Assembly (NCBI GenBank): GCA_030148915.1
Contig: JASBSN010000030.1
Location: 1-43,619, forward strand
Direction: 5' to 3'
Origin: Thiogranum sp.
GTDB lineage: Bacteria; Pseudomonadota; Gammaproteobacteria; DSM-19610
Length of the DNA stretch: 43,619 nucleotides
Of the stretch, positions 17,412 through 20,487 are shown piece after piece. The notes under the pieces are model-generated. The model was given only the letters and a program-made list of their open reading frames with translations, did not search any database and was not told where the DNA came from. The position numbers were made by a program, and so were the translations under genes. Position 1 is the first letter of the stretch. Every line of letters begins with the position of its first letter.

Positions 17412-18593
17412 ATGCATGATGACAGCCCTTATGACGTGGTGATCGCCGGCGGTGGCCTGGCGGGTTTGTCGCTGGCCGCCCTGCTCGGTCAGGCCGACTT
17501 CACCGTGGCGCTGATCGAAGCCCGCGAACCGCAACTGAGCTGGCCCGAGGACAGCATCGATCTGCGTGTCTATGCCATCAGCCGGGCCTCCGAGACCCTG
17601 CTGCGCACCTGCGGCGCTTGGCCGGCGATTGAGGCGCGGGCGTGTGCCTATCGCGAGATGCGCGTCTGGGACGCGCAGGGCGCCGGTGATATTCACTTCG
17701 ACAGCGCCGAGTTGGGAGAGCCGGCGCTGGGGCACATCATTGAGTCGCGGGTCATCGCCAAGGCATTACTGGAGATCCTCGATGACAGCGGCGGCGTGAC
17801 GCGCTTTTGTCCGGCCAGCATTCAGTCTTTCAGTGAGCCCAACGGCGCCCGCACGGTCGAATTGGACGACGCCCGCACTCTCGGCGCTACGTTGCTGGTA
17901 GGCGCCGATGGTAAGCAGTCGCGGGTGCGCGAACAGGCCGGGATCCACGCGCAAATGTCGCACTATGGGCAGCAGGGGCTGGTGGCGGTGGTCGAGTGCG
18001 AGCGCGACCATGAACAGACCGCCTGGCAGCGCTTCCTGCCCACCGGTCCGCTGGCTTTTCTGCCCTTGCACGACGGCCGCTGTTCGATTGTCTGGTCGGC
18101 GACCACGGCGCGGGCGCGGCAGCTGCTGGCGCTCGACGATGCGGCCTTCTGCGCGGCGCTTGGCGAAGCGTTCGAGTACCGCCTGGGCGAGATTATCGGC
18201 GTCGGTGAGCGCGTCCTCTTCCCCCTCTCTCGCCAACACGCCGAACGCACCGTGGCGCCGCGCCTGGCCTTGGTCGGCGATGCCTCGCACGTCATTCACC
18301 CCCTGGCGGGCCAAGGCGTCAATCTCGGTTTCAAGGATGTGCGCGCCCTGGCGGAGGTGCTCATATCCGCCCGGCAGCAGCGGCGCGATATCGGCGCCCT
18401 GTCGGTGTTGCGCCGCTATGAGCGCGCGCGCAAGGGTGACAACCTGGCAACCATGCTGGCCATGGACGGCTTCAAGCACCTGTTCGCCAGCCCGGTGCCG
18501 CCGGTGCGCTGGCTGCGCAACGCAGGGCTCGATCTGGTCGACGCCGCTGCGCCGGTTAAACGGCTGATTATGCGCGCGGCGATGGGTCTGTAG
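17412..18593 (+). CDS. ubiI: Ubiquinone hydroxylase UbiI/VisC family
   Basis: A 393-residue FAD monooxygenase, paralogous to the preceding UbiH. It shows VVIAGGGLAGLSLAALLG, the motif LLVGADGKQSRVREQAG, and LVGDASHVIHPLAGQGVNLG. In E. coli the gene at this position (visC, now ubiI) performs C5 hydroxylation; UbiF/Coq6-like activity cannot be excluded from sequence alone. RBS GAGG precedes the ATG. The last 26 bases overlap the convergent GST gene. Confidence 0.92.
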   Translation: MHDDSPYDVVIAGGGLAGLSLAALLGQADFTVALIEAREPQLSWPEDSIDLRVYAISRASETLLRTCGAWPAIEARACAYREMRVWDAQGAGDIHFDSAELGEPALGHIIESRVIAKALLEILDDSGGVTRFCPASIQSFSEPNGARTVELDDARTLGATLLVGADGKQSRVREQAGIHAQMSHYGQQGLVAVVECERDHEQTAWQRFLPTGPLAFLPLHDGRCSIVWSATTARARQLLALDDAAFCAALGEAFEYRLGEIIGVGERVLFPLSRQHAERTVAPRLALVGDASHVIHPLAGQGVNLGFKDVRALAEVLISARQQRRDIGALSVLRRYERARKGDNLATMLAMDGFKHLFASPVPPVRWLRNAGLDLVDAAAPVKRLIMRAAMGL

Positions 18594-19191
18594 CCGCGCG
18601 CTGATACGCCGGGCGTTGTTGCAGGCGGCCCGTATAGTCGCAGAGCGCCGGGTGATCCTCCAGCATGTGCGGCAACCACAGCAGTGTCGAACCCAGCAGC
18701 AGATCGGCGGTGCTAAAGTTGTCGCCGGCAAGATATTCACGGCCGGTCAGGGTTCGTTCGAGCACCTCCAGGACGCCTTTGTAACGCCCGGTCGCCCACG
18801 GCACCATACCGATGACCCGCTGTGCCTGCGGCAGTATGGCGCCGTGCAAGAGAATTTGGAACGCCAGGGGTTCCAAGGTGCCCGGAACATAGAAGACCCA
18901 TTGGGTATATGCTCTGCGCGCCGCCGTGTCGCCGGGCGGCGGCGCCAGCTGTGCCTCCGGATAGCTTTCACTGAGCCAGTGGCACATGGCGCAGGACTCG
19001 ATCATCACCTCTCCGTCGATCTCCATGGCCGGCACCGCGCCGTGGGGATGGACGCGGCGGTATGCGGCGCTGTTTCCCTCACCCTGGAATAGATCGATGA
19101 GGCGCAGCTCGTAGGGCAGCCCGAGTTCCTCCAATACCCAGCGGGGCCGCAGCGAGCGGGTGCCGTGCGTGTAATACAGTGCGATCGCCAT
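18568..19191 (-). CDS. Glutathione S-transferase family protein
   Basis: A 207-residue cytosolic GST-fold protein. The N-terminal thioredoxin-like domain has LYYTHGTRSLRPRWVLEELGLPYE, the cis-proline loop GAVPAMEIDG and the glutathione-binding ES in VMIESCAM. The C-terminal helical domain includes LAGDNFSTADLLLGSTLLW, the usual N-capping Ser/Thr-x-x-Asp. Substrate is unknown. It is divergent from the HxlR regulator; its promoter is covered by a 30-bp dyad, which makes it the likely target of that regulator. Convergent overlap with ubiI is 26 bases. Confidence 0.92.
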   Translation of the reverse strand: MAIALYYTHGTRSLRPRWVLEELGLPYELRLIDLFQGEGNSAAYRRVHPHGAVPAMEIDGEVMIESCAMCHWLSESYPEAQLAPPPGDTAARRAYTQWVFYVPGTLEPLAFQILLHGAILPQAQRVIGMVPWATGRYKGVLEVLERTLTGREYLAGDNFSTADLLLGSTLLWLPHMLEDHPALCDYTGRLQQRPAYQRAATDPSPRA

Positions 19192-19215
19192 GCTTTTTTG
19201 CTCACTTTTTGTTTG

Positions 19216-19245
19216 AAAGTAACTGGAGTCTAGTTGAGTTACTTT
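19216..19245. promoter_or_regulatory. Dyad operator candidate for HxlR regulator
   Basis: AAAGTAACT (19216-19224) and AGTTACTTT (19237-19245) form a perfect 9-bp inverted repeat separated by 12 bases. It overlaps the -10 box and spacer of the GST promoter. A related half-site AAGTGACTGG follows at about 19254-19263. Inverted repeats containing GTAAC/GTTAC-type halves fit winged-helix HxlR dimers; binding is inferred. Confidence 0.6.
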
Positions 19246-19255
19246 AAATTAACAA
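19227..19255 (-). promoter_or_regulatory. Promoter of the GST gene
   Basis: On the minus strand TTGTTA (19255-19250), 17-base spacer, TAGACT (19232-19227), giving a leader of about 29 nt. Its -35 box overlaps the -35 box of the divergent hxlR promoter. Confidence 0.55.
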
Positions 19256-19277
19256 GTGACTGGTTTTCCGCTACACT
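19249..19277 (+). promoter_or_regulatory. Promoter of hxlR-like gene, predicted leaderless
   Basis: TTAACA (19249-19254), 17-base spacer, TACACT (19272-19277). Matches are 5/6 and 4/6. The -10 box ends 6 nt before the ATG at 19284, and no good Shine-Dalgarno is present. Confidence 0.5.
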
Positions 19278-19283
19278 GGTGCC

Positions 19284-19700
19284 ATGTCTGATGTGAAAAA
19301 ACCGGCGGAAATGCCGACGCAGTGTAAACGCTCGATCTGCGGGGTGGCCTGTAGCCTCGACCTGCTGGGCGATAAATGGACGTTGCTGGTGGTGCGTGAC
19401 CTGCTGCTGGGCAAACAAACCTACGGCGACCTGCAGGCGTCGCCCGAGCGTATCCCCAGCAATATCCTCGCCGACCGGCTGAAAAAACTGCAGGCAGAGG
19501 AGATAATCTACAAAACGGCGTATCAGCAAAAACCGCGACGCTACACCTACCACCTCACGGAGAAAGGCGCCGACCTGCTGCCGGTACTGCGCAGCATGCT
19601 GGAGTGGGCCAACAAGTACGTGCCCGGTACCCTGACGCTGGCCGAAGTGGAGCAACGCCTGCAACAGAATCGCACAGCCGCGCGCCATGCAAGTCGCTGA
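19284..19700 (+). CDS. HxlR family winged-helix transcriptional regulator
   Basis: A 138-residue regulator with the HxlR pattern: cysteines C14, C19 and C23 near the N-terminus, then CSLDLLGDKWTLLVVRDLL, ERIPSNILADRLKKLQAEEI (recognition helix region), and RRYTYHLTEKGADLLPVL for the wing. HxlR proteins such as YodB and HypR sense quinones or oxidants through an N-terminal cysteine; here the cysteines make that plausible but unproven. It is divergent from a GST gene and overlaps the downstream MOSC gene by 14 bases, suggesting a detoxification or redox module. Confidence 0.92.
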   Translation: MSDVKKPAEMPTQCKRSICGVACSLDLLGDKWTLLVVRDLLLGKQTYGDLQASPERIPSNILADRLKKLQAEEIIYKTAYQQKPRRYTYHLTEKGADLLPVLRSMLEWANKYVPGTLTLAEVEQRLQQNRTAARHASR

Positions 19701-20487
19701 GCTGAACATTTACCCCATCAAGTCCACGCGGCGCATTGCCCTGGCGGAAAGCCGCGTCCTGCCGCGCGGTCTGCCCTGGGATCGGCGCTGGATGCTGGTC
19801 GATGACCAAGGCCGGTTTATCACCGCGCGCCAGCAATCCCGTCTGGCCACGGTGCAAAGCGCGTTGCGGGACGATGTGTTAGAGGTGAGCGCCGCCGGTC
19901 TGGGCGTTCTGCGTTTGCCGCTGGTACCAGCTGAGCGTTGCATGACGCGGGTGAGCGTGTGGCGGGACTCGCTGCAGGCGGTGCTCGCGGGCGCGGCGGC
20001 GGATGCCTGGTTTTCGGAGTTTCTCGGCCAATCCTGTCGCCTGGTGCAGTTGACCGACGATCTGGTGCGCGGTGTCAACCCGCAGTATGGGCAACCCGGC
20101 GACGAAGTCAGTTTCGCCGACGGTTACCCGCTGCTGTTGATCAGCGAGGCTTCGCTGGCCGATCTCAACGGCCGCCTCGCTCGGCCGGTGGAGATGCGCC
20201 GCTTTCGCCCCAATCTGGTGGTCGACGGTGAGCTTCCCTATGCCGAAGACGGTTGGCGTCGTCTGCGCGTCGGTGAGGTGGAGTTTGCCGGCGTGAAGAA
20301 CTGTTCACGCTGTATTTTTACCACTATCGATCCCGACAGCGGCGAGAAAGACGCGGCGGGAGAGCCTTTGCGAACGCTCGGCAGCTACCGTCGGCGGCCC
20401 CAGGGCGGGGTGTATTTCGGGCAGAATCTGATTCCTCGCAGTGGCGGGGTTATTCGTGTGGGCGATCCGGTGACGGTGCTCGACTAA
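19687..20487 (+). CDS. MOSC domain-containing protein (YcbX/mARC-like, no ferredoxin domain)
   Basis: A 266-residue protein with an N-terminal MOSC beta-barrel domain (ELNIYPIKSTR..., PRGLPWDRRWMLVDDQGRFITARQ) and a C-terminal MOSC domain. The molybdenum-cofactor cysteine motif NCSRC (C206, C209) is present, followed by TTIDPDSGEKDAAGEPLRTL and a terminal FGQNLIPRSGG segment. E. coli YcbX has an extra C-terminal 2Fe-2S domain that is missing here; the length fits stand-alone members that reduce N-hydroxylated compounds with partner proteins. The ATG is inside the end of the HxlR gene, implying coupled translation. Confidence 0.9.
   Translation: MQVAELNIYPIKSTRRIALAESRVLPRGLPWDRRWMLVDDQGRFITARQQSRLATVQSALRDDVLEVSAAGLGVLRLPLVPAERCMTRVSVWRDSLQAVLAGAAADAWFSEFLGQSCRLVQLTDDLVRGVNPQYGQPGDEVSFADGYPLLLISEASLADLNGRLARPVEMRRFRPNLVVDGELPYAEDGWRRLRVGEVEFAGVKNCSRCIFTTIDPDSGEKDAAGEPLRTLGSYRRRPQGGVYFGQNLIPRSGGVIRVGDPVTVLD

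Follow-up and report, generated by a model that had tools for sequence, protein, structure and literature searches.

Paired 23-bp operators between divergent GST and HxlR-family genes suggest a self-regulated detoxification module in Thiogranum sp.

The stretch of DNA analysed here (the window; 43,619 nucleotides), which is contig C104 of a 3.2-Mb Thiogranum sp. genome (G000), quite probably carries a self-regulated detoxification module, in which an HxlR/DUF24 autorepressor would use paired 23-bp operators to block a GST gene doubly and the hxlR-MOSC genes singly, probably with Cys19 as the sensing residue. The predicted autorepressor gene (19284–19700, plus strand; 138 amino acids; PF01638) is separated by a gap of 92 bp from the divergent GST gene (18568–19191, minus strand; 207 amino acids; Pfam GST_N/GST_C), a predicted target. 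Downstream, the start of a MOSC_N/MOSC protein gene (19687–20487, plus strand; 266 amino acids; PF03476 and PF03473) overlaps the end of hxlR by coordinates, and the two genes are predicted to be co-transcribed, making GST and hxlR-MOSC the predicted targets in the window. GST is also the divergent neighbour of hxlR in orthologous loci, and the MOSC gene lies downstream of hxlR in relatives too (for example, L033–L037). By HxlR identity, the closest named records are Thiogranum and Thiohalobacter MAGs and other Gammaproteobacteria. The arrangement is of an already-known kind, in which a divergently placed HxlR regulator that bears cysteines controls its own expression and has detoxification targets. 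With two copies of a likely binding site that recurs in related bacteria, it is in all likelihood an ordinary stress switch under its own control. Two UbiH/UbiF-type hydroxylase genes are also found in the window.

The initial annotation had described a perfect dyad in this gap as the operator. The dyad, with two 9-nt arms 12 nt apart (19216–19224 and 19237–19245), is present and sits in a longer imperfect inverted repeat whose arms (19202–19224 and 19237–19259) are 83% complementary. A perfect 9+9 dyad with a loop of 3–30 nt also arose in 46 of 3,000 dinucleotide shuffles of the 92-bp region (~1.5%); on its own, then, the dyad is only a modest surprise. Its halves, AAAGTAACT-12-AGTTACTTT, proved to be the facing inner halves (right half of O1, left half of O2) of two separate 23-bp sites, and it is this N9-spaced site, GTNACTT-N9-AAGTNAC, present twice, that is the conserved unit. 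Operator O1, CTCACTTTTTGTTTGAAAGTAAC (19201–19223), matches 11 of the 12 defined positions and covers the predicted GST start. O2, GTTACTTTAAATTAACAAGTGAC (19238–19260), matches all 12; it is placed 37 bp from O1, where the -35 elements of the two promoters overlap. Two non-overlapping sites of at least 11/12 occurred in none of 20,000 shuffles, for a pattern that was picked after the orthologues had been viewed.

The two promoters proposed earlier are present, with a -35 region common to both. The predicted hxlR promoter, TTAACA-17-TACACT (19249–19277, plus strand; -35 at 19249–19254, -10 at 19272–19277; 9/12), was the sole promoter-like match in the intergenic region when positions 18900–19700 were scanned at a threshold of 9, the second plus-strand match lying inside hxlR; the predicted GST promoter, TTGTTA-17-TAGACT (19227–19255, minus strand; -35 at 19255–19250, -10 at 19232–19227), matches at 8/12 and falls under that threshold. 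The two -35 hexamers overlap by five bases in the window, and in some relatives (for example, L050) the -35 hexamer is TTGCAA, which is its own reverse complement. The repeat had been thought to cover only the GST -10 and spacer, but O2 extends to 19260 and thereby takes in the -35 of each promoter, which makes hxlR itself a predicted direct target.

Transcription of GST would be expected to start near 19220. Six bases separate the end of the hxlR -10 from the ATG (19284), so hxlR transcription is expected to begin at or beside the ATG, and the hxlR mRNA is probably leaderless. In the 20 loci with site pairs at 36 or 37 bp, the -10 and start codon are separated by 6–7 nt in 12 (inspection by eye adds L035 and L036), and this gap is absent in the other eight (L010, L041, L043, L046, L048, L057, L064 and L066). 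For the divergent gene, a -10 search confined to the O1–O2 stretch placed the best match at offset 26 from the O1 start, between the operators, in 16 of these 20 loci. In L046, an ATG at the leaderless position, ~46 bp after the O2 start, opens a short frame that is not hxlR, and hxlR seems to begin further on.

In the mechanism that we infer, which extends from binding and repression (over activation) to sensing by Cys19, the inducer and the two transcription starts, HxlR/DUF24 dimers would bind the two operators; O2, over the overlapping -35 elements, would block the GST and hxlR-MOSC promoters together, and O1, over the GST start, would block GST a second time, leaving hxlR-MOSC blocked once. 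Modification of Cys19, at the start of helix 1, by an electrophile or oxidant would lower DNA binding, so that GST and the MOSC protein are switched on and more repressor is made. The start of the hxlR transcript at or beside its own ATG would keep translation of the regulator low. Sites on a -35 element or a transcription start usually mean occlusion, and the positions of O1 and O2 therefore favour repression by occlusion. Activation of one or both promoters from the same two operators is improbable given these positions, although both promoters are weak by consensus and the family offers a precedent: B. subtilis HxlR, whose Cys11 aligns with Cys19 here, is described as a formaldehyde-activated positive regulator that works through a Cys11-Lys13 bridge (PMC7835342), so the direction of control is not transferable from the family. 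The position of Lys13 is occupied by Val21 in our regulator (aligned to the K13A chain), so the Cys-x-Lys pair of helix 1 is missing and a formaldehyde bridge of this type was ruled out.

The 23-bp unit recurs upstream of HxlR homologues. At least 73 homologue loci were found with six peptide patterns, and further ones came from a search with matches in 39 of 95 genomes; after six duplicates and a locus with a broken gene (L014) were left out, 97 loci were counted, which share ancestry, so that locus counts do not equal independent events. A site of at least 11/12 lies upstream of the HxlR gene in 34 of the 97 (mean of 0.04 and maximum of 1 in 100 dinucleotide shuffles), a 12/12 site in 23 (mean and maximum of 0 in the shuffles) and the core ACTT-N9-AAGT in 54 (shuffle mean 0.39, maximum 3). 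The same core at other spacers from 3 to 15 was found in 0–3 loci each, and when sites of at least 11/12 were counted by spacer from 0 to 25 (98 loci), 34 fell at spacer 9, 9 at spacer 2 and 0–2 elsewhere; we read the secondary peak at spacer 2 as overlap with N9 sites. The core is missing in 43 of the 97 upstream regions, mostly but not only those of more distant homologues, and exceptions such as L055, L059 and L063 keep weaker sites.

The sites occur in pairs 37 bp apart in 15 of the 97 loci and 36 bp apart in five; each of the spacings 32–35, 38 and 40 is represented by one or two loci, and each larger spacing by a single locus. The expectation that the intergenic repeat would be conserved in orthologous loci was borne out in that the repeat is kept with the GST and hxlR orthologues; what is kept, however, is the N9 site. 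A single operator consisting of the 9-12-9 dyad, with one dimer over the GST -10 and hxlR left mostly free, is therefore very improbable: the window does hold a perfect dyad of a kind rare among shuffles, but across loci the N9 spacing is fixed and the distance between units, and hence the gap of the dyad, varies, the distance between facing halves in the orthologues simply following from the 36–37 bp pairing. In addition, two loci (L035 and L036) retain a lone N9 unit, so that the dyad partner is missing there. We also considered a 16-bp palindrome, GTTACTTTAAAGTAAC, as the unit and set it aside, as the 23-bp unit is the better fit to the orthologues.

Loci in which one of the genes has moved, is missing or is broken assign the sites to regulator and target. 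In L035 (genome G006) and L036 (G016), no GST is adjacent to hxlR and the single site lies 46 bp before the start codon, the position of O2 in the window, and the distant GST of each genome has a site pair at exactly 37 bp (scores of 11 and 10 in G006, and of 10 and 12 in G016). The co-occurrence of sites with both regulator and target, at conserved spacing, is thus observed in unlinked cases too. In G067, which has a 50% identical GST and no hxlR match in an 88% complete genome, no site of at least 10/12 was found near the GST. A sequence that looks inserted splits the intergenic region in G001 (L014 and L117) and a similar one interrupts hxlR; at the locus with the broken hxlR, where GST and MOSC are intact, O1 (11/12) remains near GST, and no O2 of at least 10/12 was found. 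A further 20 more distant GST loci (L126–L145) yielded no site of at least 11/12, three of them having 10/12 sites.

With regard to the insertion itself, a sequence containing GGTTGGCGCNGAGCGCAGC has two copies in L014 (G001:C46, ~1240–1600), one in the gap between GST and hxlR and the other within hxlR. The pattern is found nowhere else in G001 at 0 mismatches and is not found in G000; a dispersed repeat as the cause of the broken hxlR was discarded, because the only two copies in G001 are both at this locus.

Searches of whole genomes point to location and pairing. In the Thiogranum genome, O2 is the sole exact match to the unit, and four places match with at most one mismatch, O1 and O2 among them; the other two, C5:7688 and C111:16668 (the latter ~156 bp before an ABM-domain ORF), were left as probable chance matches. 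Across 56 genomes, the exact unit was found at 11 places, of which 10 are hxlR or GST loci. Single sites show no enrichment: a reversed control gave 25 exact places against these 11, and with at most two mismatches in our genome it gave 94 against 36 for the unit, so the weight of the evidence rests on location and pairing and not on abundance.

A gene-blind search of 369 genomes for two exact cores 31–38 bp apart gave 15 places in 13 genomes (reversed control, 3), several of which were already in the orthologue set; 12 are beside an HxlR gene, two are before a GST gene and the remaining one has no match to the eight query proteins. The double pattern with 0–1 mismatch occurs at eight places, all known hxlR or GST loci, and at up to three mismatches it is no more frequent than controls. 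Among 17 genomes of the genus, the 37-bp double core with at most two mismatches gave 10 places (reversed control, 8), nine of which are hxlR/GST loci or the GST on contig C50 (see below), the tenth being G011:C71, with two mismatches. The least probable reading, in which the sites are genuine but mainly serve another factor, such as a 41% identical HxlR paralogue on contig C25, can draw on a core-like sequence seen by eye before the paralogue's own gene and on the related pair at a second GST in the same genome, but it is very hard to reconcile with 10 of the 11 exact sites being located where this orthologue or its GST is encoded and with the absence of any site of at least 9/12 upstream of the C25 paralogue.

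This paralogue (G000:C25:63196–63528; L002, L181) is divergent from a 146-amino-acid ORF with no Pfam match; the sequences upstream of it resemble ACTTGCATAATG and CATAATGCAAGT and lie ~31 bp apart by eye. The second GST of the genome (C50:10428; L177, L186), which is one of the two GST cases from the gene-blind search, has exact cores 37 bp apart with weaker outer bases; this double core (G000:C50:10314–10367) lies upstream of the GST start (C50:10383), and a -10-like TAGGCT is found between the cores. The C50 GST may be a second, unlinked target of the regulator adjacent to O2 or of its paralogue. A MAPEG gene lies downstream of GST in G016 and G010, and a degenerate pair, with three mismatches to the double pattern, precedes a MAPEG gene in G011. 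By family, the GST, MOSC and MAPEG candidate targets have glutathione or detoxification functions.

The regulator itself scores 80.4 bits against PF01638 (cut-off, 20.8), and its AlphaFold2 model (pLDDT 85.5) has an HxlR-type winged-helix fold, the nearest solved folds being PA1607, YodB, HypR, HxlR (DNA-bound) and QsrR. Against the NCBIfam models for the redox regulators RrpB and RrpA, it stayed below the curated cut-offs, at 64.1 of 175 bits and 40.2 of 185 bits, respectively. Cysteines 14, 19 and 23 are present as the initial annotation had listed them, but a three-cysteine switch does not agree with the homologues: among the 46 that bear sites, Cys19 is found in all 46, Cys14 in 6 and Cys23 in 22. 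Cys19 is invariant in 73 aligned sequences and lies just before the helix formed by residues 20–28 of the model (mean pLDDT of residues 11–20, 68). It is also found in 47 of the 51 homologues without a site, indicating that Cys19 marks the family and not the operator. By analogy with characterized relatives, sensing of electrophiles by the regulator is plausible and would probably involve Cys19.

Among these relatives, YodB and QsrR, quinone-sensing repressors of Firmicutes, share the HxlR/DUF24 family, the fold and the dimeric repressor logic. HypR of B. subtilis has the same family and fold, and its first cysteine aligns with Cys19. Two tandem binding regions reportedly lie upstream of the B. 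subtilis HxlR target (work attributed to Yurimoto in 2005), much like the paired sites here. YodB is described as preferring the operator TACT-N7-AGTA and as having a reactive Cys6 near the protein start and a second cysteine, Cys101 (PMC8063818), whereas our regulator has no cysteine after residue 23; the YodB box has 0 matches in the whole window. In acuR-acuI-dddL of Rhodobacter sphaeroides, the repressor gene is described as heading an autoregulated, leaderless operon whose later genes encode enzymes (PMC3017554). According to that account, AcuR is a TetR-family regulator induced by acrylate, unlike the HxlR-family protein here, and the leaderlessness of its operon was mapped, whereas ours is predicted from the position of the -10. 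Neither the operator motif nor the GST-HxlR-MOSC module appeared among the hits that searches of open-licence full texts returned, most subscription papers lying outside this coverage.

We consider it an even call whether an HxlR clade across several phyla reads the operator code gtnACTTGCAwwwTGCAAGTnac, often in two copies, with a dual-use -35 and a second lock in the gammaproteobacterial GST modules. If so, the TTGCAA or TTGTAA at the inside of the second copy in these modules would serve as the -35 of both back-to-back promoters, one dimer would silence both genes, and the copy 37 bp away would lock the detoxification gene, and that gene alone, a second time. It would then be possible to read the regulons of the clade, unlinked GST and MAPEG-type genes included, from sequence alone. 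For this little-studied group of HxlR regulators, the vague dyad gives way to an operator that is defined and can be searched for; a few targets are predicted (GST, the MOSC protein, the second GST at C50 and MAPEG in relatives), and Cys19 is the one cysteine to mutate first.

The gene divergent from hxlR varies. ORFs of ~215–224 amino acids with no Pfam match are directly divergent from hxlR in L010 (684–1331), L050 (1760–2434) and L064 (1680–2330), all on the minus strand; L010 and L050 have their GST past this ORF, on the same strand. In other taxa (L051, L052, L075, L086 and L101), a different gene is divergent from the regulator of this clade, including metaxin-like GST, NmrA-like, short-chain dehydrogenase and SnoaL-like genes, and related sites upstream are retained despite these differences.
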